This document shows, one piece after another, positions 1 to 57,829 of a DNA stretch of 64,000 bases. The notes under the pieces are model-generated. The model was not told where the DNA came from. It was given only the letters and a program-made list of their open reading frames with translations, and searched no databases. Numbering within the stretch: the first letter of the stretch is position 1; each line of letters starts with the position of its first letter. The stretch covers positions 7,801 through 71,800 of the forward strand of contig LUCM01008772.1 of the NCBI GenBank assembly GCA_008360955.1, in the 5' to 3' direction. The translations under genes and the position numbers were made by a program. Origin of the DNA: Fasciolopsis buskii (lineage: Eukaryota; Platyhelminthes; Trematoda; Plagiorchiida; Fasciolidae).

Positions 1-384
1 GAGTCGAACGCCTTAGCCATTACGCTACCGGGCAGGCTCTGAACGGTTTGTTCAACTTCACCACATGATGTTGCACCTATCCGTCACTGGTTTGCACGGT
101 TACTGTTACTGTCCGTTACCTCACAGCGATCGACCCCTACTGATAGATGACTTCTCTGCAGGTAGCCTAAGTACGACGAAGGCTTTGGATATGACCTACA
201 CAGCTTGCTTGATTACTTGATACATTTTAGTAGTAGGAGATTGAATGTTTACATGAAATAATTCACCATGTGATATCATCGCTGCTTATGATTGTTAACG
301 AGGATGAGACAGCTAAACAGTGCTTCCATGGTTTTTTATGGTGAGTTGAGCGATGAAATCACATGGTGAATTATTTCATGAAAG
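1..384 (-). repeat. tRNA/hammerhead SINE-like repeat, copy 1 (cut by window edge)
   Basis: Reading the minus strand, this copy runs from an inverted arm (plus 300-384) through a 32-nt arm end, a spacer containing a conserved CTCCTACTACTAA-type block, and into a tRNA-like head whose A box (reverse complement at 17-27) lies near base 1. The B box would lie outside the window. The spacer matches the copy at 30494-30907 over about 230 bp in reverse complement. Plus-strand bases 252-283 and 349-380 are a 32-bp inverted repeat with one mismatch. It is a non-coding, non-autonomous retroposon by analogy with tRNA-derived SINEs. The order of blocks differs from the other two copies, so this locus is rearranged. 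Confidence 0.75.
281..327 (+). ncRNA. degenerate hammerhead ribozyme relic in repeat copy 1
   Basis: This aligns with the hammerhead at 57511-57565, but the first core strand is CTTATGA (285-291) instead of CUGAUGA, the second is GAGA (306-309) instead of GAAA, and the stem III/cleavage-site bases are AAA instead of UGUA. The stem I 3' strand CAGTGC (318-323) survives. Substitutions at G5 and in the GAAA box are expected to abolish cleavage, so this is a dead copy. Confidence 0.6.
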
Positions 385-10799: not shown

Positions 10800-12080
10800 C
10801 CCCCGAGGAACTGCAAGGATTAGTCGGCTGAAGGAAGAATAGTGGTATCAGGCGCCGTTCCCTTGTCAACTCGGCTTCTGAAGAGGGGAAAAGCAGCCGG
10901 TCCAAACGAACTCCCTCCTTTCAGTTCTTTTCAAATTCGGTGGAGAAGTCCTGACAAAAACTTGCCTCATTGATCCTTGATATTTGGAACAAATCAATGA
11001 TCGTACCCACCTTCAAAAAGACATAGAGTGACCGCCTGTGACAATAATCGAGGGATTAGTTTAATTCCGATAGTTATTAAGATCCTGGCGTTGATAATGC
11101 TGCGCCATTTGACACCGGTTCATGACAGCAACACCCATGAACATTAACCTGGATTTCGTCCATGTGGACGTTGGAAAGACCAGGTTTTTACTGTTCACCA
11201 GTTACTCGAAATACGGCACACACTGCCGCCTACGTTCATAATTATTCTCGGTTTCAAAGGCGATTTCGACTCTTTACCAGACAATGCTATTCACTGCGCC
11301 CCATCAAAATGGTATACAAGCGAAATTGGTGAACCTTGCGCGAGCGCTGCACTGGCATACCTATGTTTGCTTGAGGGTATACGGTGAACTACCAAGTTCA
11401 TTCAAAGCGACTAGCGGTGTTTAACAAGGGTGCTTCATCTCACCATTCCTGTTCAACTTATTCATAGACAAAATAATGGAGAGCACTTCAGGAGGTCTCC
11501 AGAATGTAGGCGTCGAACTGACAAACGGAGAGAAGCTGTGAGACCTAGATTACGTAGATAATGCGGACCTTGCAAAAAGTGCAATAGACAGACACTTGAA
11601 CCCTGTAGCTGGGTTCGCTGTGCTTTGCACCTTCAAAGTATAGACTGCTGTAACAAGATTGGATGACATTAGTCCAGAAGTTGGTACTCAATGAAGATCG
11701 GCTGACTGTGTAGACTATTTCACTTACCTCGGAAGCTGCGTGACGAACGATGGTAGCACGGTATTAGAGGTGAGCGTGCATATATCCAACGCTGGAGTAG
11801 CGCATGCTGGACTGAAGCACTTGTGTCGTCCGTCTGACGTTTCACTGAGGTTAAAAGGCCGTGTTTACTGTGCCGGATGGCACTCAATTCCGTTGTACGA
11901 TTGCAAGACATGGGAGATGGTCGTCAGTTGGAGGTTTTCGACCACCAATATCTACGTATTAAAGCTAGGGTTGGATGGAGTGACCGGGTGAGTAATTTTG
12001 AGGTGGGGAATCTAATACTAAGTGCCGGGTCTCAGAATACCATATCTCAGCGTATGAAAATTAATAGACTACGCTGATTA
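10800..12080 (+). pseudogene. RTE reverse transcriptase remains
   Basis: In shifting frames the strand shows, in order, RT linker residues, a KFGGEVLTKT-like block, an IIEG-V-F-like motif near NNRGISL, the fingers/palm region, QGCFISPFLFNLFIDK (the QGCPLSP-type motif, near 11430-11470), the catalytic box as YVDN, and the thumb block VDYFTYLGSC. Stops interrupt each block, and the changed catalytic aspartate makes activity impossible. The end blends into the C-terminal region at 12080-12350. Confidence 0.85.
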
Positions 12081-12350
12081 GGTTACATGTTTTCTAGGCT
12101 AACAATTGTCTAACAAATCGTGCCCTATTTGGCTTTGCTAAGTCAGAGTCGAGGGAACAATGAGCAAACCAGCAGATGACGTGGTGACGTGCAGTGAAAA
12201 TTTTCACAGCGGACTTAGTCAAAGTAGGTGCCTGGCGTTTTTTGGGTCGGGGTCCGAAGGTTCCGCCAGCTGGGTGGCTGGAAACACTGAGGGATTTGAC
12301 AGTAAACCTTTGGTGATCGCGTTGCGATTAACAGAAAAAGCTTGTTAGAT

Positions 12351-24555: not shown

Positions 24556-24686
24556 GTTTTTATTGTGAATGATATAATATTAATAACACAGCGTTGTTGG
24601 TAGATGTAACGCGCCAACGTTTCGACTACCGTGGGTAGTCTTTCACAACGCTGTGTTATTAATATTATATCATTCACAATAAAAAC
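24556..24686. repeat. perfect 42-bp inverted repeat with ribozyme-like loop
   Basis: Arms 24556-24597 and 24645-24686 are exact reverse complements, separated by 47 nt. On the minus strand the loop contains a second small hairpin (GACTACC/GGTAGTC, plus 24624-24640) followed by GAAACGTTGG, the 3' half of the dimer-type hammerhead seen in Penelope-like elements. The 5' core strand is not conserved, because the base before the small hairpin is GTGAAA. The repeat sits between the endonuclease and linker of the CR1-like ORF2, so it is probably a nested Penelope-derived insertion. Confidence 0.8.
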
Positions 24687-30487: not shown

Positions 30488-30717
30488 ATAAAGGTGAATT
30501 ATTTCATGAAAACATTCATTCTCCTACTGCTAATAAAATGTGCCAAGTAATCAAGCTCTGTAGGTCATGTCCAAAGCCTTCATCGTACTTAGGCTACCTG
30601 CAGAGAAGTCATCTATGAGTAGGGGTCGATCGCTGTTAGCTAACGGACAATAACCGTGCAAATCAGTGACGGATAGGTGCAACATCATGTGGTGAAGTTC
30701 AACGAAACCGTTCAGAG

Positions 30718-30795
30718 CCTGCCCGGTAGCGTAATGGCTAAGGCGTTCGACTTAGAATCGTTCGTCCCGGGTTCGCGTCCCAGTTCGAACGCGGT
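30718..30795 (+). promoter_or_regulatory. tRNA-like head with Pol III A and B boxes (copy 2)
   Basis: The A box TAGCGTAATGG (30727-30737) fits the TRGYNNARNNG consensus. The B box GGTTCGCGTCC (30770-30780) fits GGTTCRANYCC except for one base. Their starts are 43 bp apart, normal for an internal RNA polymerase III promoter. The anticodon region folds poorly (loop CTTAGAA, only 3 of 5 stem pairs) and there is no matching acceptor stem, so this is a tRNA-derived promoter head and not a functional tRNA. Confidence 0.75.
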
Positions 30796-30850
30796 CGATA
30801 TGCATTGCTCATGATTCCTAACAAGGATGAAACAGCTGTACAGTGCTTCC
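30796..30850 (+). ncRNA. hammerhead ribozyme, core-mutated (copy 2)
   Basis: The layout is identical to copy 3: stem I 5' strand GCATTG (30802-30807) pairs with CAGTGC (30841-30846) with one wobble, followed by stem II, GAAA (30829-30832) and the same stem III with UGUA at the cleavage site. The first core strand, however, is CTCATGA (30808-30814). G5 has become C, and G5 is invariant in active hammerheads, so cleavage is expected to be lost. Confidence 0.75.
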
Positions 30851-30907
30851 ATGGTTTCGTTATGGTGAGTTGAGCGATGATATCACATGGTGAATTATTT
30901 CATAAAG

Positions 30908-33900: not shown

Positions 33901-36492
33901 AAATAGCTGTCTATATAGCAATTCCATTACCATGTTACGGTCAGAGAGAGACATTCCGAAGGGACTTGTGCATTGTCGACAAAATGTTTGCAAGAAACAT
34001 TTAAAAATGTTTTTGCCTAAAAAAGGGGGGGTGATAAAAACAACCTGACACGAAATCAGTCATTGTTAACTAAAATAACCAAGTAATTAGGGGGATTTAT
34101 ATGTATGTATATATATATATATATGTCTTTGGAGAACGGGTGAAATAATGGGACCTAGGACTCGGTTAATTAGAGACGAATTCCAGGTAGAAAATAGAGC
34201 ATGGTGTGGGAAACATTTCGTTTTCTTGTTTAAGATTAAAATTTTTCTATCACAAATTGTCGAAATACAAAAATGGCTTCAACTTACCACCAAAGGGTCA
34301 CCCTGTATCAGGCGAGCCCAAATCAACTGACTGGCAAGTTAATTGTGACCACAATCCATGTCCTACACGCGCACACATACACACAGGTAGCCGGGTAACC
34401 ATGTTCGTGATTGCCCACTGAAGAACCAGAATGCAATAGATTCGGAGAACCAGAGAAAATGGCACCTGTCGAAATACTCTTGTCCCCTTAATAGGTGATC
34501 ACAAACTATTGCATTATCATTTGAAGCGCAAGATTATGAATTTACTACTTAATCTATAGAATGGGTGAGCACGCAACCATCTAAGACGTTCAATAAAGGC
34601 ATTTTTTATTTTACAAGCTCTTTTTTAACAAAATAACTTGCTTTGAGATAATGAAAATTTGACATAAATTTCATTCAAAGTTCTATAGAGAAAATGAAGT
34701 AAATGCTACAGTACGGGGTAAATTGTTTCAGTAAGCTGCCAAATTTACAAATAATGAATAATTACATGATGCTAGGTACTTATTTAGCAGAAAACTGAGC
34801 CAGTTCTAGAATGTTAAAAGAATACGTCCGAGAAGTTTGTAGTCTACCATTAAGCCCCAACCTAGTATGCAATCAATAAACGTGAGCCTCCCGATTCAAT
34901 TGCATATGAGATAAAATCTACTCATGTAATCGAAATACTTATTACAATTTTCAAGGTCAATTTTTCTTCATATTTATGAGAAGCTCTCTGTTCCTCACTA
35001 CTGTGGATTCATTGATAACAGACCGTCGGCGAAATCTCGAAGAAAAGAGACGGACTATTGTACTGCACAATCCGTACGTGGATAAAGTTACTGTCATGAC
35101 CATCAGAATTATTTGCGATCCTCCATTCCACTCGACCAAACGTAAGCATCCAAATCAAACATGAAACTAACGGAAACTTGTCATTTCTCGATAGAAGAAT
35201 AAAGCAGAAAATCGATAAAGGTGTTAACCGATCTGTGATTGGCTGGCGTACGTTGATAAGAAATGAAGAGAAATGGCCACACTTTGAGATTGCTGTGGAA
35301 ATGCTCGACTGTAATTTCATACAATAAATCACATATCTCGTGGGCCATCTAGGCGGATAAGCTTTGTACCAAATAGGAACAGATTCGAGACTGAGAACGA
35401 AGGTGTCTTATACGGGAAATTGTTCCAGTTTGCCTAAATTACAAGCGTCGATGCAAAACACAATACGGAGTGGGGTTGTTTTTAAGTTACCAAAGGCCTC
35501 AAGAGCTTTATGGCTGTTTCTGTATCACATGAATCCACGTCGGATTATGATAGTGCGCAAAATGAGGTTGTATGAATCGCAGTAATGATCACAGAACAGG
35601 ATAGCACAAGATCCTGGAAACAAATTACGGTTCCAAAGATTTGTATTGGAATAAATAACGACATCGTGATCAAGCAGTTCGTCGAGCTCAAACTGGAAAG
35701 CCATACAACCCATGATTTGCGTCTACGAGTTTCGATCAAATCATGTAATCCCGTCGCTTTCTTGTCGGTGATGATTTTCAGTGAATATTTCAAATATCTA
35801 TTTTGAAGTTTTGCTTGAGCTCGATTGTCATGCCAGTTTATATTTTTACTGTTGCGGTTTAAACCGAATATGTTTAATGGCATTTCATAATATATTTTGC
35901 CTGAGTATTCAATGTGAATATTCATTGAAATTCTTTTTTTCTGAAATTATACTATTTATCACATAAAGGCTTAAATTGAATTTGTGTTATGTACAAATTT
36001 CTGCTCATTAGGCTGCCATTTGCGAGGATCACTTAATGAAGTTTTTCCATCTGAGGGTACGCTATCACAGATGTCAATTTTTCTACGGTATCATTTGAAT
36101 ATTTAGAATCGCACAATGTTTCGTCGAAAGACTATCGTCGGTTGATCCGGGCTAAAATAAGGAAGAGGACATGAAGTTCGAAGTACGGGGAATGGCTGAA
36201 CAGGACAATACTGGGTGTGGGAAGCACTAAGCTACAAGACGGTCTTGTGCTTTCGGGGAATCTTTTTTATTCAGCCGTGTGCTGAACATACTACTGAAAA
36301 CAGTTTGTTTTCGGTTACGCATCATTAAATCCGCTGACCGTAGAACGTCGTCCAACTTAGCGGGATTCAAGCCCTGCCATTGATAAACCCCAGGAACTAG
36401 CGTTTTCCGTTTTCCAAAGACCCACATGCGTTTGACCATTTCACCCTACAAAAAATTGCTTTCGCATAACGCCAACTAAGGAGTGGGTTCAG
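30908..36492. other. AT-rich stretch upstream of the receptor gene
   Basis: There is no recognisable coding region. Frames of up to 126 codons at 34950-35970 overlap on both strands and match nothing I know. Apart from the AT microsatellite at 34098-34125 I see no repeats. Upstream exons or the promoter of the receptor gene could lie here, but none can be pointed to. Confidence 0.45.
34098..34125. repeat. short AT/GTAT microsatellite
   Basis: This is a run of TA dinucleotides interrupted by two TATG units, about 28 bp long. Confidence 0.85.
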
Positions 36493-37800
36493 GTGTGTCT
36501 GCGACCAATGTTAGTTTACATTTGGCCCTGTGAAACATTGATTAACCGGACAGCAAGTAGGATAACCACACAAATATTTCCTCGGTACGCGCCAACTGGA
36601 TTCCCGTTTACGATGATCACACGAATTTCATTGGCTAAACAGGCTTCTTTTTGTGACCGGAATAATACATCAGTAAACGTCCAATTTTGGGGTCAGTTTC
36701 GATTAGTGGATATTCAAACTCATACTGCCAAATATAAGACACTTGATTTTTTGAAAATATTTCAATCCTGGTTTGGATCACTAGAAAGAACAAATTCGAT
36801 GCTACTTTGGTCCAATTTTTCCAACGGGATGTACACTGGTCTTTTGTTTCCTCCCGAGGATGATATCGTGATTGCAATCATGTGTTGCGTAATTATTTCT
36901 GGAGCACTTTTCAACATCTATATTATTTGTCTATTAACTAAGACAAAAATTGGCTCCCTACTCACAAAAGTGCTCTTATACAACCAAAATATAATTGACG
37001 CAACATTTTGTATGTTGATCTGTAGCATGATAGTTTCGAGTAATTTCACCAAGCCTTGCCAGGACAAGCCAATCAATCCTATGGCATGTCATCTCTTGCA
37101 AAACGGATTCCTTTCACGAGTTGTTTGCATCATGATCGTGGGTAATATTGTTTGTGGGGCAGCAGATCGATTTTGGTCCATTGTGTACCCAAGAACCTAC
37201 CGGCGTTACACGAAGCGTTACAGTGCCATTTGCTACTTTGGCAACTCTGTTTATGCCCTTCTGTGTTCATCATCACGTCTACAATCTGCGATCCTTAGTA
37301 ATGGAATTTGTCGGTTACAGACACGTCCACATTATCAGTCGCTTTTTAGTATCATCGAAAGTATTATCCGCTACGGTGTACCCACACTATTTCTTGTGTG
37401 CTTAAACACTGCAACGAATCGGGAATTACACCAACTACGAAAAGGTGCATCACGTGGTCTCAGACGTGTGAAAAACAGTATTGAGGGGACCACAAATGTG
37501 ATTGCGTGTGTACGAAAAGCGGTGTTTTTAAATGCTCTTTGCTTGACTACTGGGTTAATCCTATTGGAGATAGTTTCAGTCACACTAACAGTTTTAGACA
37601 GATTGGAATCTATCAGTTTCAGTCTGAACTCCTCGACTCGGATGTACTTTTTGTTTACTGCAGCTTCTTTTTCCACATTAAATCCGTGCGTGCAAATTGT
37701 GACCATGAAGTCGATCAGAAGCACAATTATTGAACATTGGCGTCCTCGTAAATCGTTGCATTGTTGCGAGGCTTGGATTGCTGTCTCACATACTCCGTAA
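36493..37800 (+). CDS. rhodopsin-like G protein-coupled receptor, divergent flatworm-type orphan
   Basis: This is a 435-codon intronless open frame for a plasma-membrane receptor. Seven hydrophobic segments are visible at about 124-148, 156-182, 204-230, 243-262, 285-306, 343-367 and 383-404. Class A landmarks are present but altered: Asn141 in TM1, Asp169 in TM2, DRF (225-227) in place of DRY after TM3, Pro297 in TM5, and LNPCVQ (396-401) for the NPxxY motif of TM7. Cys189 or Cys199 could bond to Cys273 in the second outer loop. The usual TM4 Trp and the TM6 FxxCWxP motif are missing. Met103 (36799) is the more natural start: it leaves a 21-residue outer N-terminus with an N-x-S site (Asn108). 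The first 102 codons may be 5' UTR or read-through intron. The divergence fits flatworm-expanded orphan receptors (PROF-like); ligand unknown. An AATAAA follows 273 bp after the stop. Confidence 0.85.
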   Translation: MCLRPMLVYIWPCETLINRTASRITTQIFPRYAPTGFPFTMITRISLAKQASFCDRNNTSVNVQFWGQFRLVDIQTHTAKYKTLDFLKIFQSWFGSLERTNSMLLWSNFSNGMYTGLLFPPEDDIVIAIMCCVIISGALFNIYIICLLTKTKIGSLLTKVLLYNQNIIDATFCMLICSMIVSSNFTKPCQDKPINPMACHLLQNGFLSRVVCIMIVGNIVCGAADRFWSIVYPRTYRRYTKRYSAICYFGNSVYALLCSSSRLQSAILSNGICRLQTRPHYQSLFSIIESIIRYGVPTLFLVCLNTATNRELHQLRKGASRGLRRVKNSIEGTTNVIACVRKAVFLNALCLTTGLILLEIVSVTLTVLDRLESISFSLNSSTRMYFLFTAASFSTLNPCVQIVTMKSIRSTIIEHWRPRKSLHCCEAWIAVSHTP

Positions 37801-38078: not shown

Positions 38079-41000
38079 AGATCGATAATAATCGTCTCAT
38101 GTATGTTCATTTATACGGAATCTATATAATGTTTCAATTTTAATACTCGAAATATCACAAATAAATAGGTTCATTGATCGAATTGTTTGAAGACTACCCG
38201 GCTTCCCAAACCTTCCTCGCGTGCAATGCAGCTGATTGATCCAGAATCTCAGCAGAAAATCGAAAATAAGTGGACACGGGGAGTTGGATCATATGTGCAC
38301 TCAGAGTTCAGGCAAATAATTTAGCCAACCGAGGAAAATCCGAATTCACATTACACTGACCCGTAATTATAGATCTGAGTCTCTTGTGCGGGTCTGCCCA
38401 CAGAACTGCATAACAATTTTCACGCGCTCGAAATATTTACGATGACACACAATTAAACGGATCGAAATTCTCAAGCCCCATATCAATCTTCCTAGGTCAA
38501 AGGTGAAAGCGAAAATGATGAAATGGAAAATAGCTGCACATTTTCCAGACCAGGGTCAATAGTAATTTTATAAATATGCGCCTGCCCTGACAATGTCATC
38601 TCGACTTGTGATGAAGCTTTTACGATCTAAACGCCAAGCTCAGTAATCAGAAATCAATGAAAACCAACAATCTGAGCTGTGACCAGAACAAGTTTTCAAA
38701 TCTATTTACCGAAACAATAGTGATGTAACTTCATTTGTTGTTTTGTTTAGGTAGGCTTTCGCTTATATTATTCTGCGAATCTGCCCAGTAAAATTCATAA
38801 AATTTCAGGGCTAGATAAGGTTCAGTATGTTAGGATAGCACAATTTATTACGGTGTCCACTTCTTTGAATCTTAACTGGTAAATGGTTCACTCAGAAACC
38901 ATAAAATTTTCAAATCCCTTTTTAATCCTCTTTGTTGGACCAAGTCACGTCATCTGTTTGTCCCTATTGGCTTCTCTGTCTTTAATGATCAAGAATTCTC
39001 ATCAGTGTGGCCGACTTGGAATTAGCTATCCCAACTAGTTAACCGTTAATTTGAAAGTATTGGTCTCAAAATCGGTTCACTTCAAAAGATATTCTATTGA
39101 AACCAACATCTTGTTAGATTGTTTTCTTAGAAGAGGAGTGATTCAAGCGATTTTCATCAGTATGCAATGAAAGGAACCAGCTGAAATCATTTTCCAATTT
39201 GATCCTAAAAATCAATATCGAATTTTGGAATAGTACGGCAACTCACAAACTCAGCGATTTCTCTAATTAGTAAACCTTCTGTTATCAATATATTCTCGAA
39301 CAATGGAACACCGTTCGGAGGAGCAATATAACTTCAGGGGTTCCTGTAACCGAGAACTTTCGCTAACTCCAAGCTTCTTCCCAGTTTGTATTTCGGCATT
39401 GACATTAGAAGCACTATAAAGGTAAAAATATGATACAGACTTTATCGATTTTGAGACTAGCCGTTTCAAAGCAACGGAGAACTAGTTGGAATAGCTAATT
39501 CGAAGTCAGCCATGATAACGGTAATTCGTGACCAGCAAAGACCGAGAAGCCAAGGGGGACAAACAAATGATACGCCACATTACGGCGACTTGGTCCAGCA
39601 AAATTGACGGAAAAAGAATTGTGAATATCATTGTTTCTACATGAATACTGCACCGGCAGAAATTACGAGAATTTTGATTCTTATTGCCACCGCGTCAAGT
39701 CTTTCTTCAAATCAGAAACTACATTTCTGCAGATCAATTTGCCACTAAGATGAAATATTGAGTAAATAAAATTTCGTTCCTGTTAAGTCAGGATGCAACA
39801 TGCGAAATGACTTGACATATTTTTGAAAGATTTCGTTTTAACTACGGAGATTATCCTTTTTCTTAACTCGTTGTCTGAACAAAACAACAAAGCAAGTTGA
39901 CCTAATGTTCTGCTGTTTCGAATTTGGAAGGCGTTTTCTAATGGATTGATTGTAGGCAGTCCGAAAAAACATCAAACGTCGAAATTTATTTTAACTTTCA
40001 CATTCGGAAAATTTTTTCCCTAATTTAACTGAAAATTGCCGGAATATGGTCGACTAATTTGGACACGAAATTCACTACTAGTGTCTCCGAATAAAGACCA
40101 AAATATGAGGCAGTAAAGTGTGACGTACTCAAGCATTAGCTATTCCTGCCTTTGACTTTGAAGCTCGTTTCTTCCATATTAAGTGGACATTCTTCCTAAA
40201 TCTCCATTTTTGATCACTGGACAAAGATAATCTCGGAGTTCTGATGAACATTTTACGTGTAAAAGCCTTCATCAGTTCGCAAACATTTAATGTCTGTGAA
40301 CGTTTAAACATTTTTATTTGGACAACCCAGAACACTTGTTTTATAATTCTTTAACTTTGAATCGTTCAAATTCTTCTACATGTTCTTATCAATCATTTCA
40401 ATCGAAATATCCCAAATTATCAAACTCTCAGTGGCGAACAGATTTTAGAGCAAAGAATAGCCGCGTTGGAGATCCTTGACGAAGTGGTCCAGGTTATGTG
40501 CAGGAAGGCTACAAATAAAGTAGACCAGGCGTTCATTGGAGCAATAATCAACTGGATCATTTGACAAATCGAAATGACTAGTCTGGGCCCCGTATCTCTG
40601 AATCTGTCTGTTTCTATGTCGCGAAAGTTAACCGAATGCTAGACATTACTTGAGATGAAAATACGTACGACATTTTGAAGGGATCTGTTATGATTTGCTG
40701 ATCAGGTGGTAGCGTAGTTGCCTTACGTGGACGCTTCATTTCCCCACGAAACTAAGAGAGAAACCCCCCAATCCAGATCAAAATAATGAAGACCAAATGA
40801 GCAAGAGGAACAGGAAAGATACAAATGTTGCTCAAATAACAATAATAAACTCGAAATTTAATAAATAATGTCACTATCATCAGGTCATAAAAATTACAAT
40901 TTTAACCTCCAGTTTTACAAAATATCTGGCATGCGGAAAGTTTAATAACAGAAAGTTATTATGGAAACTCATAATGAGACCATCTGTTTTTCCAGCTCTG

Positions 41001-41602
41001 GAGTTCAGGTAACTGCGCACGGGGCGAAAACGTCAGAATGCCAATTTTCCTTGTTCTTTGTGCTGATGTTACCTTGATTTTACGGATTCTACATGTGGCT
41101 ATTCCTGAAACTTAGTCGTTCTGAGATCGCGCCCCATTCCCAATCCATCAGTTGGGCAGTCGGATAAGATCATTCCACTTAGAACTGCTTAGACCCATTA
41201 AGAACATCGTGCAGTATAAAAAGGAGGACCAAGCCGCACTGAGCCCCTTTTTCCCAGAGTCACACGCTCTTATAAGCAGAAAGAATACACAAGTGGGAAC
41301 GGAGAGAAAAGAAAATAATGACGCAGCAGGCAACGAACGGAATGCAATCTAAGTGTACAGAGGCACGTGTTTATAACCATTGATCTTCGACAGAAATTGG
41401 AACATTATTTACTCTTCGCAGAACTTTCATTCAGTAGATTTATCCAGTTGGTTACCGGGTATTTCGGACCACAACAACGAAGGCGTGAGACACTCACGTT
41501 AGCGAAGTTCGCTGTGCATTTTCTCACTTCATGTTTTCGCATCATCTGCTGAACTCCACGGTACTTCTTCCAGTTTGTGCGATGGACTCAAAATAGAAGA
41601 CG
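38079..41602. other. AT-rich stretch without a supported gene
   Basis: Only frames under 70 codons are present. No domain, repeat or RNA gene was recognised. Confidence 0.5.
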
Positions 41603-42393
41603 CTATAGTAGACGAGTGTTCGCCATACGCAACACGTGACCCAACCAACGTATTCTACCAAGCCTCACAAATCGAAATAAGATGATCTCAGAACCGGCAC
41701 CCAATACTAGATCTCTAAACTCCACATTACTCACCCGGTCACCGTATCCCATCTTCGAGTTAACACGTAGACGAACATTTTCGGCACACAAACTCCACGA
41801 CTGGAAACCATGCAGCAGAACTGAGCACACTACGACATAGTACACTCAACGTTTCGACTTCAGCGAAATATCCGGCCGACGCCACAAATGTTTCAGTTCA
41901 GCGTACACTGCTCGAGCATTGGATATATGCGTGCGAACCTTCATTACCGTGCTACCATCCTTCAACCCGCAACTTCCGAGGAAAATGAGACAGTTTATAA
42001 CTGTTAGTCCCTTCCCATCCATTATCGATTTCGTGACTACCGTCATCCAGTCATATACGGCAGTTTGCACTGTGAAGATGCATATCACATGTCCTCGCGA
42101 ATTAGTCTAGTGCACACTGCGCGAACAAACACAAGGTAGTTTGTCGAATCTAGGTCAAACAGCTTCTCTCCAGTTGTCAGTTCGACGCCTAAATCCTGAA
42201 GACCTAAGGCATTCACCTTGTCCATGACCCAGTTGAGCGACAATGGAAACACGGGCATCCCACTCGTCTCGAATGAACCTGATAGCTCACCGTACATGTT
42301 TGCAGATTTGAACCATCCGCGATTGTTATGTCGTCGGATTAGCACAAATATTAAGAACTTCACGCATAGGTCATGCGTCATTGGTGAAAACAC
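41603..42393 (-). mobile_element. RTE-type retrotransposon fragment, minus strand
   Basis: From 42393 downward the minus strand shows RTE reverse transcriptase and C-terminal blocks in order. These are a YGELSGSF-like segment, MDKVNALGLQDLGVELTTGEKLFDLD (palm, with the catalytic YADD degraded to STNYL), a FLGSCGLKDGSTV thumb block, LKHLWRRPDISLKSK, a CSVLLHGFQSW block, and finally RLGRIRWLGHVLRMA at the C-terminal end (about 41610-41660). It is the same family as the element at 10388-12350 but in opposite orientation and covers only the last third. The catalytic box is destroyed. Confidence 0.85.
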
Positions 42394-48535: not shown

Positions 48536-49125
48536 ATGACATTGGTTTGTTCGCTGAGTTGGGCAATTTGATTGCAAACGTTTCACCACCTATCGAGGTG
48601 ACTTCGTCAGTGCTTTGATTTTATGGTGAGCGTCTGGTTGCCGTCGTCCTCCTAAATCTGTCAACTAGTCTGTTGGTGGTTGTTGATTGGCTGCTCTTGG
48701 TGAGGTGGTGAGGTAGAGATGCTGCCCCGTTGCTTTGTTCACCTTCGTCTATTGTTAAAATGTTGTGGGCTGAATCAGCGTCCCTTTCGACTGGCTTGTG
48801 TTGATCGCCCCTTCGATCGGATCGATAGGCAAAAGTGGTCCAGATCAACGTGTCTGTTTATTGATCTTTCTGAGGAGTGCTAAGCTTCGAGAAATTCCCT
48901 CGAATGCTTTGTTTTACTCTGGGCGACGCCCGTCACATTTTCGAAGTTGAACTTGTGACCCTCTCGGAATTCGTGAACTGAAATTAGAGAGAGTAGATCA
49001 TGCTTTTGTTGCCAAATGGTGCTCATGAATCCGTGCCCGAGTTTCTTTCCGGTTTGTCCGGTGTACTGTTTTTCACAGTCTTGGCAAACTATTTGATAGA
49101 CAGCGTTAGTTCGATTCTTGTCAGC
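48536..49125 (-). mobile_element. Penelope-like element 3' part, minus strand (GIY-YIG end)
   Basis: On the minus strand this starts abruptly at a GCTGACAAGAATCG word and encodes the GIY-YIG nuclease start (VYQIVCQDCEKQYTGQTGKKLG: the VY and YTGQT residues match the two halves of the GIY-YIG motif, with Cys ahead as in Penelope elements). It then gives EFREGHKFNFENV, REFLEA and a polar C-terminal tail to about 48621. After the stop comes a 3' non-coding part with a hammerhead-like motif (48571-48616). It is 5'-truncated, lacking all RT. Penelope elements use RT plus this nuclease for integration. It lies head to head with the next copy. Confidence 0.85.
48571..48616 (-). ncRNA. Penelope-type small hammerhead, core preserved
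   Basis: The minus strand reads CTGACGA (plus 604-610 of this kb), a 7-bp stem II (GTCACCT/AGGTGGT with two wobbles and one unpaired A), GAAAC (581-584 and the next base) and ACGTT. The ACGT is self-complementary, so stem III forms only between two molecules, as described for Penelope-associated hammerheads that cleave as dimers. Stem I is short (GCA/TGC). All core residues fit CUGANGA and GAAA. The extra unpaired A before stem II and weak stem I lower confidence in activity. Confidence 0.55.
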
Positions 49126-49126
49126 C

Positions 49127-49583
49127 GAACAGACCAAAGCACGAACCGTCTTGCCGTACATCAAGCATATCTCTGAAATGACAACAAGATTACTCAAGCC
49201 CCATGGAATTGAAGTGGCCCACAAGAAAACAAGAACCCTACGAAATATTCTATCTGAGACGAAAGAACCGACGGCTGACAAGAATCGAACTAACGTCGTC
49301 GATCAAATAGGCTGCCTAGACTGTGAAAAACAGTACACCGGACAAACCGGAAAGAAACTCGGGGCACGGACTCATGAGCACCAATTGGCAACAAAAGGCA
49401 TGATCCACTCTCTCTAATTTCTGTTCACGAAGACCGAGATGGTCGATAGACTAGGTGATAAGTTTAGGAGGACGACGGCAACCAGACGCTCACCACAACA
49501 TCAAAGCATTGACGAAGTCACCTCGATAGGTGATGAAACGTTTGCAATCAAATTGGTCAACTCAGCGAACAAACCAATGTCAT
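49127..49583 (+). mobile_element. Penelope-like element 3' part, plus strand (RT end plus GIY-YIG start)
   Basis: This starts inside the RT C-terminus (LPYIKHISEMTTRLLKPHGI, VAHKKTRTLRNIL) and runs into the GIY-YIG start (RTNVVDQIGCLDCEKQYTGQTGKKLG, with Tyr of the first half replaced by Asp), then the frame is lost near 49417. The middle of the nuclease is deleted: the sequence jumps from the early GIY-YIG region to the C-terminal tail at about 49439. Its last 150 bp are the reverse complement of 48536-48680, and both copies end at the same CAAACCAATGTCAT word. It is a dead copy. Confidence 0.85.
49506..49545 (+). ncRNA. Penelope-type small hammerhead, C3 mutated
   Basis: Same motif as in the opposite copy, with a better paired stem II (GTCACCT/AGGTGAT) and GAAA at 49535-49538, but the first core strand is TTGACGA (49509-49515). 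C3 has become U, which breaks the C3-G8 pair, so this copy is probably inactive. Confidence 0.5.
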
Positions 49584-57204: not shown

Positions 57205-57238
57205 AGATTCATCTTATTAGTAGTAGGAGATTGAATGT

Positions 57239-57334
57239 TTTCATGAAATAATTCACCATGTGATATCATCGCCCAACTCACCATAAAGAAACCATGGAAG
57301 CACTGTGCAGCTGTTTCATCCTTGTTAGGAATCA
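57239..57334. repeat. left inverted arm of copy 3
   Basis: A 96-bp arm, reverse complement of 57527-57622 with about 4 mismatches. It begins at the same nucleotide, within stem II-side sequence of the ribozyme, so it contains a reversed 3' half of the hammerhead without the first core strand. Confidence 0.9.
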
Positions 57335-57433
57335 GTAGGGGTCGATCGCTGTTAGCTAACGGACAATAACCGTGCAAATCAGTGACGGATAGGTGCAACA
57401 TCATGTGGTGAAGTTGAACAAACCGTTCAGAGC

Positions 57434-57507
57434 CTGCCCGGTAGCGTAATGGCTAAGGCGTTCGACTCACAATCGTTCGTCCCGGGTTCGCGTCCCAGTT
57501 CGGGCGC
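57434..57507 (+). promoter_or_regulatory. tRNA-like head with Pol III A and B boxes (copy 3)
   Basis: The A box TAGCGTAATGG (57442-57452) and B box GGTTCGCGTCC (57485-57495) start 43 bp apart, exactly as in copy 2. The anticodon-loop analogue differs (CTCACAA against CTTAGAA), showing independent drift. The cloverleaf does not close, so it is a promoter-bearing tRNA relic and not a tRNA gene. Confidence 0.75.
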
Positions 57508-57510
57508 GGC

Positions 57511-57565
57511 GGATATGCACTGCTGATGATTCCTAACAAGGATGAAACAGCTGTACAGTGCTTCC
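57511..57565 (+). ncRNA. type I hammerhead ribozyme with intact core
   Basis: The first core strand CUGAUGA is at 57523-57529 and GAAA is at 57544-57547. Stem I pairs GCACTG (57517-57522) with CAGTGC (57556-57561), and an outer GGA/TCC pairing (57511-57513/57563-57565) is separated by a TAT/T internal loop like the tertiary-contact loops of natural type I hammerheads. Stem II is TCCT/AGGA with loop AACA above one U-U mismatch. Stem III is ACA/UGU with a 2-nt loop. U16.1-A17 places the cut between 57555 and 57556. It would process Pol III transcripts of the element. The U-U pair at the base of stem II and the tiny stem III loop may limit activity as a monomer. Confidence 0.85.
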
Positions 57566-57829
57566 ATGGTTTCTTTATGGTGAGTTGAACGATGACATCA
57601 CATGGTGAATTATTTCATGAAATTAGATTCATCATTTACGAAGGGCATACAAAATTCATTGTGATTAGACTGAGAGAGCATAGCAGGGACGCACGGAGAA
57701 CGTACTTAAGCCATGTGCAATCAAATAGTTTCATGGTAGGGACAGTTGAGAATTTTCTATCTAAAGGGATGAGCATGGTATCCGGGCAAGACAGAATGTC
57801 AAATTCCTATTAGCTACTTCACTTTATTA

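Follow-up and report, generated by a model that had tools for sequence, protein, structure and literature searches.

What kind of element is the repeat that lies between positions 57205 and 57633 of the window (the whole 64-kb stretch of fluke DNA analysed here), and how did it come to be copied? The first-pass annotation had described it as a SINE, inserted as a unit, in which a complete type I hammerhead stands beside a Pol III-type promoter. Below, this repeat is called copy C, and its two relatives in the same window are called copy A and copy B.

Layout of copy C and related copies in the window

Positions within the repeat unit (v) are counted from the base after the predicted hammerhead cut (v1), which places the tRNA-like part at v273-343 and the core residue C3 at v360. 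The features of copy C and the extent of the other two copies are as follows.

57205-57213, strand not applicable: left target-site duplication AGATTCATC, 9 bp
57214-57334, minus strand: inverted left arm, the reverse complement of hammerhead core, tail and first ~25 nt of the head, ending in the second end zone (~v89)
57331-57435, plus strand: body upstream of the tRNA-like part, common to copies A and B; copy C is without the head and the first part of the body
57436-57506, plus strand: tRNA-like stretch, likely a Pol III promoter (Rfam tRNA 25.8 bits, cut-off 29)
57442-57452, plus strand: A box TAGCGTAATGG
57485-57495, plus strand: B box GGTTCGCGTCC, off consensus at the position that is usually A
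57511-57565, plus strand: hammerhead with the outer stem I helix, in which folds pair 57511-57513 with 57563-57565 beyond an internal loop
57517-57561, plus strand: type I hammerhead, minimal form (Rfam RF00163, Hammerhead_1), predicted cut between 57555 and 57556
57547-57554, plus strand: palindrome ACAGCUGU, an 8-bp stem III if two hammerheads pair, as in the minimum-energy fold of the homodimer
57562-57622, plus strand: tail, with 57613-57622 (TTTCATGAAA) inside the first end zone (~v67)
57625-57633, strand not applicable: right target-site duplication AGATTCATC, 9 bp
30493-30906, plus strand: copy B (head, body, tRNA-like part, hammerhead and tail, with tail sequence before the head), no inverted arm
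1-383, minus strand: copy A, with an inverted arm at 282-383, truncated where the window begins, just after a run of N

The annotated 9-bp target-site duplication is confirmed by AGATTCATC at 57205-57213 and 57625-57633, and a 9-mer is shared by chance in 0.3% of random pairs of 30/33-nt flanks. The span annotated as a simple SINE does not hold, as the element's own hammerhead-tail-head region reads in reverse complement at 57214-57334. When 57527-57622 is reverse-complemented it matches 57239-57334 (96 nt, 96%), and 57214-57238 continues into the sequence that comes after the tail in copy B. These two matches show that the left arm is an inverted hammerhead-tail-head piece. The inner junction of copy C shows microhomology. 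Copy B carries GGTGAATTATTTCAT at both 30493 and 30889, 396 nt apart, and its hammerhead core, CTCATGA at 30808, is predicted to be dead. In both copy A and copy B the tail sequence stands immediately before the head. The run of N that truncates copy A, which is either an assembly gap or a withheld stretch, lies directly before the window start (L069:1500-2001).

Other inverted repeats were also seen in the window. Nested repeats that pair 48536-48671 with 49448-49583 (93%) and 48957-49127 with 49272-49444 (91%) make up another foldback at 48536-49583, and further inverted repeats occur at 38950-39570 (78%) and 24556-24686 (80%). The stretches 11493-12130 and 41591-42205 are ~66% alike in opposite orientation and are probably old copies of a longer repeat. 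A 454-aa open reading frame at 36436-37800 has one close relative, at 99%, and matches at 39% identity a protein of Echinostoma caproni whose name refers to a GPCR domain; no solved structure matched it. These matches point to a fluke, and, as no schistosome protein was among them, apparently to one outside the schistosomes. A Pfam search of ten open reading frames of the window gave no match.

The hammerhead and its predicted fold

The first-pass annotation had proposed the Rfam type I model as a check on the hammerhead. The model does match 57517-57561 at 26.7 bits (E = 3.2e-4 for 701 bases and 4227 families), but this score is below the cut-off of 34, and the gathering-threshold scan of the whole 64-kb window was empty. 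Rfam searches of eight loci at E up to 0.01 also returned nothing, a limit too strict for a 26.7-bit match in 38 kb. When a descriptor of motif and pairing was used instead (CUGANGA, stem II, GAAA, U-H and a stem I of at least 5 bp), the copy C site was the sole match on both strands of the window, and 200 first-order Markov random windows of 64 kb gave none.

The core of the copy C hammerhead is complete, the predicted cut residue is A after GU, and in the folds an internal loop divides stem I into a helix of six pairs and an outer one of three. Stem II begins with a U.U mismatch at 10.1/11.1, adjoining the core, and stem III in a single molecule is no longer than 2 bp, closed by a 4-nt loop. 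The annotation of a complete type I hammerhead beside a Pol III-type promoter can be kept as regards the core, the stem I strands and the tRNA-like neighbour, but it has to be qualified by the U.U mismatch and by a score under the cut-off.

Could two such hammerheads act together? The minimum fold of the homodimer of 57517-57561 is a double hammerhead with ACAGCUGU as stem III (-31.9 kcal/mol), and a single molecule favours a non-hammerhead fold (-13.0 vs. -8.0). The energy gained in the dimer is not special, with 202 of 300 shuffled sequences gaining at least as much, and in the RNAfold control the monomer of the Rfam consensus hammerhead was misfolded as well; both controls weaken the case for the dimer fold. 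Dimeric cutting of the copy C hammerhead is plausible from these folds, and precedents are described for hammerheads of newt, axolotl and Penelope-like elements.

Conservation of the hammerhead across copies

Conservation was scored in 102 hammerhead instances of >80% identity from 49 sources, the window being one source and L071-L082 being excluded. A lack of the conserved core in most copies would have spoken against the first-pass annotation. Among these loci, chosen for their resemblance to copies C and B of the window, that is not the case: the 11 core positions checked and the cleavable residue are kept in 70 of the 102 hammerheads, and 34 of the 49 sources hold at least one hammerhead with an intact core. 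Divergence is 1.7% of cells at core positions other than G5, 2.9% at other hammerhead positions, 3.4% in the body, 4.4% in the tail and 5.0% in the tRNA part; once G5 is included the core reaches 3.2%, which we count as no less than the body. Position 10.1 is T in 101 and position 11.1 in 97 of the 102 instances, so that nearly all copies have the U.U mismatch.

It is also evident that G5 is variable, with C in 18 of the 102 instances and A in one. Examples of the G5-to-C change are found at window position 30810 and in L004, L011, L016, L025, L033 and L065, and L002 and L033 are identical at the other alignment columns and differ at G5. On a tree built without the G5 column, which is poorly resolved and likely affected by recombination between units, the G5 change takes 11 steps. 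A single origin of G5-to-C was considered and rejected, as starred branches force at least four changes; the pattern could be explained by recurrent change or by shuffling between units. L065, an array with a target-site duplication, carries G5-to-C in both of its full hammerheads, which suggests that some insertions can do without cutting in cis. This agrees with the insertion in vitro of ribozyme mutants of a Penelope-like RNA (PMC11167929). Given the U.U mismatch, the G5-to-C changes and L065, cutting may be weak or dispensable. Near one family copy, L032:675-722 is a second, divergent hammerhead-like motif, with G-C at 10.1/11.1 and an altered first core base.

The tRNA-like part

A and B boxes had been annotated 43 bp apart, and this is the distance from start to start in copy C. 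The patterns used for scoring were TRGYNNARNNG for the A box, which fits 84 of 88 copies, and GGTTCRANTCC for the B box, which fits none of the 88; the reference has C at the usual A. This departure from the B box consensus speaks against strong activity. ARAGORN found no tRNA gene. From the sequence we infer that Pol III may use the tRNA-like part. The ~200 nt upstream of it are present in copies B and A and in array units, and would be absent from any transcript starting at the tRNA-like promoter. The combination expected of a classical SINE mobilised by a LINE, namely a 5' end at the Pol III start and an A-rich or simple-repeat tail, was not found.

Copies and tandem arrays in the assembly

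To what extent is copy C one of many? In the host assembly (703 Mb, 6974 contigs) the copy C query gave 3,730 first-look candidates and the copy B query 3,672, of which the best 40 were scored in each case; the annotated repeat-family status is borne out. Some of the copies form head-to-tail arrays. Nine hammerheads 392-395 nt apart (~8.3 units) occur in L061 on contig C6157, where the other six complete units (L040) comprise one of 395 nt and five with 0-1 base differences from the first. There are four hammerheads in L062 (contig C1781) and five, four of them with the full pattern, in L063 (contig C4716), and contigs C3676, C2027, C4311, C247 and C2990 have two or three each. The same 45-nt hammerhead is found in all nine instances of L061 and all four of L062. 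The array unit measures 392-395 nt in most arrays and 397-404 nt in L067, L068 and L070, has a GC content of 47.2%, and, read as two tandem units, gives 61 aa as the longest frame from a Met. Exact patterns searched in viral contigs and genome contigs had no match.

Inverted arms are present in many copies, with arm lengths and inner junctions that vary between copies; they are absent from copy B and from arrays L061, L062, L063, L065 and L067. A constant sum of the inner junction positions, equivalent to an insert of about one unit, is seen in most loci found with the copy C query and not in L034, L036, L038, L057 and L070, and was set aside as a selection effect. L023:384-564 is a divergent relative of the unit (~70% identity) and suggests the existence of older subfamilies.

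Insertion ends and target-site duplications

The ends of the insertions were read against a real tandem stretch, which gave 86 template-3' ends from 48 mapped loci. Forty of these fall at v57-71, 34 at v85-107, 3 at v76-78 and 9 elsewhere (some of the nine being locus or tile edges), and the two end zones are ~25 nt apart. For the pairing of ends, 31 of 38 two-ended rows were kept, 7 with an end elsewhere being dropped, and 10 were added later; three of these 41 insertions have an end between the zones and were set aside. Among the remaining 38 insertions with inverted arms, 34 use one zone at each end (25/28, then 9/10 of those fetched later), and those with the same zone twice are three short-short and one long-long. 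Shuffles of the zones gave a mean of 19.2 discordant insertions, and 0 of 20,000 reached 34; in this count the near-duplicates L018 and L020 enter twice, and L035 and L039 have a gap between pieces. Most of the loci come from the copy C query, and copy C itself has one of each zone. Because a long-long copy would score equally, this query should not create the one-of-each rule. Discordant zones were also found in 4 of the 5 copy B-query rows counted.

Target-site duplications were examined in 25 insertions with readable flanks, as L002 and L033, among the 27 with ends read, abut runs of N. In 14 of the 25 the two flanks have a word of 8-15 bp in common, whereas 3% of mismatched flank pairs reach the 8-bp minimum; in the other 11, including two of five arrays (L063 and L067), the common word is no longer than 7 bp. 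The four-hammerhead array L062 lies within a 9-bp duplication, TATTCTAGG, L065 within AAACGTAG and L061 within AAAAAAAGC, which is of low complexity. If an array was inserted in one step, its template or cDNA must have spanned several units. Among the 27 insertions with ends read there is no consistent A-rich or simple-repeat tail. The template-5' ends are scattered (v11, 49, 139, 150, 191, 327, 341, 370 and 371; n = 9 usable, with L033 excluded next to its run of N). None of the nine is at the predicted cut, which argues that the linear self-cut monomer is not the usual template. A reverse transcriptase stop or RNA end just past the tRNA-like part (v327-371) would cover only four of the nine and was discarded.

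Alternative explanations

How else might the family have arisen? A tRNA-derived SINE of the ordinary kind, mobilised by a LINE via target-primed reverse transcription, sometimes inverted by twin priming and carrying the hammerhead as a passenger, would account for the tRNA-like head, for duplications that vary from 8 to 15 bp, and for inversions with microhomology at a junction such as that of copy C. We nevertheless regard it as unlikely, since ~200 nt upstream of the tRNA-like part are found in B, A and the array units, a four-hammerhead array stands between 9-bp duplications, the tail is neither A-rich nor a simple repeat in any consistent way, each insertion tends to have one end in each of two zones, and the hammerhead positions are the least diverged. 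The annotated "SINE inserted as a unit" is incomplete: it is right about the repeat family and the duplication, but tandem arrays, the upstream sequence, the lack of a consistent A-rich tail and the inverted arms do not go with it. A satellite with an inactive or relic hammerhead, which spreads through segmental duplication and unequal crossing-over, appears improbable: near-identical units within an array, dead cores in many copies and the resemblance of L018 and L020 to a duplicated segment fit it, but dispersed single copies and some arrays have their own target-site duplications and defined ends.

That the hammerhead is a chance resemblance might be argued from the score under the Rfam cut-off, the empty gathering-threshold scan and the U.U mismatch. 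The absence of descriptor matches from 200 random windows, the 45 nt identical throughout L061 and L062, and the low divergence of core positions other than G5 make this very improbable. Copy C by itself, with 96-nt arms at 96% and a 9-bp duplication, would pass for what is left of a foldback or Mutator-like DNA transposon, one that ends in long terminal inverted repeats and makes 9-bp duplications. We give this hardly any credence, because inverted arms are missing from copy B and from L061, L062, L063, L065 and L067, the arms that do occur vary in length and inner junction from copy to copy, and duplication length varies from 8 to 15 bp; the family has no fixed terminal inverted repeats, which contradicts such a transposon.

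A probable mode of propagation

It seems probable that copy C is one copy of a non-coding fluke retroelement family with a unit of ~392 nt, which combines a tRNA-like stretch (likely a Pol III promoter) with a predicted type I hammerhead and whose DNA copies are likely made from circular or multimeric RNA by a reverse transcriptase that another element encodes, probably an element of the Penelope-like kind. What is seen in the sequence are arrays with both parts in each unit, tail-to-head junctions in copies of just over one unit, duplications, two end zones and inverted arms. Under this retroelement reading, Pol III would start at the tRNA-like part and could read through tandem units, because no TTTT run is found in the array unit. 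Hammerheads of neighbouring units, paired via the ACAGCUGU palindrome, would cut the RNA. Some of the units released would be circularised by a host ligase, a step reported for other animal retrozymes. The helper enzyme would then nick both target strands and, for each strand, initiate at one of two neighbouring sites within the RNA. Synthesis that runs on beyond the start point would give a tandem cDNA or one of one-plus units, and the joining of two cDNAs would give the inverted arm.

GIY-YIG is the nuclease type of Penelope-like elements. Searching the assembly for the Pfam GIY-YIG domain turned up two partial matches. An open reading frame at L082:1387-1827 contains the domain at 28.6 bits, above the Pfam cut-off, has one relative at 52%, and presumably resembles the nuclease of Penelope-like elements; the unit and L082 have nothing in common beyond 10-16-nt matches. 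It is from the end structure alone that we infer the type of helper enzyme. A purified Penelope-like enzyme is described as starting inside the RNA at two adjacent sites and extending both target strands (PMC11167929), and for animal retrozymes a helper role of Penelope-like elements has been proposed (PMC7229834). Somewhat speculatively, a single RNA circle made by the ribozyme might carry two reverse transcriptase units ~25 nt apart, with one strand of the cut target as the primer for each, in which case the foldback insertion would be the fossil of a paired start; we hold this to be possible but doubtful.

Comparison with known elements

Sm-alpha and Sj-alpha are described as SINE-like schistosome elements that carry a hammerhead and are tied to tRNA-Gln, with ~38,500 hammerhead candidates in S. 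mansoni (PMC2770079), and schistosome repeats are reported to contain a tRNA (PMC4918200). The S-alpha-like layout in the first-pass annotation is supported, as the fluke family likewise has a tRNA-related part and a type I hammerhead, both below their Rfam cut-offs, in one small high-copy element (PMC2770079, PMC8490949, PMC4918200). The fluke element differs in having no callable isotype, whereas Sm-alpha is tied to tRNA-Gln (PMC2770079), and in a stem II that starts with U.U. In the available text of PMC2770079, PMC8490949 and PMC4918200 there is no mention of S-alpha inverted arms with two end zones.

Animal retrozymes are described as non-LTR elements of 170-400 nt that lie in tandem, carry type I hammerheads and occur as circular RNA (PMC7229834). 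The fluke family has in common with those of coral, mussel and axolotl the type I hammerhead, a unit within 170-400 nt, tandem copies, a GC content under 50% and duplications of >4 bp (PMC7229834); its units of this size run head to tail without a protein-coding region, and its duplications of 8-15 bp in 14 of 25 insertions exceed 4 bp. According to a 2020 review, retrozymes seem to be without promoters and have no motif from which the helper could be told (PMC7761336), whereas the fluke family has a tRNA-like promoter. With Penelope-like elements it has in common type I hammerheads, tandem or partial-tandem copies, and ends that resemble an internal start at two adjacent RNA sites with extension of both strands (PMC11167929). 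The 392-nt unit has no frame long enough for a reverse transcriptase or a GIY-YIG nuclease, and the family would be a non-autonomous user. Its end positions match a Penelope-type insertion from two adjacent internal start sites, on either strand.

Judged on sequence, the anatomy of the fluke family is that of a retrozyme or a Penelope-type insertion, and it is a real repeated element, with near-identical units in at least one array, that fits a retrozyme with an S-alpha-like head and is likely mobilised in Penelope fashion. Among the matches listed in the open-licence literature, no report of such hammerhead elements in non-schistosome flukes was recognised by title or abstract. While the architecture is already known, the family and the one-of-each end rule appear to be undescribed.

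The fluke family would offer both handles on retrozyme biology in one genome. The handle on transcription is the tRNA-like promoter in the units of the L040/L061 array, and that on the copying enzyme is the resemblance of the insertion ends to the two-site internal start of a Penelope-like enzyme in vitro. If the paired-start reading is true, the RNA of a Pol III-promoted ribozyme would be the cargo of a Penelope-type enzyme. The S-alpha layout would also be extended to a fluke apparently outside the schistosomes.
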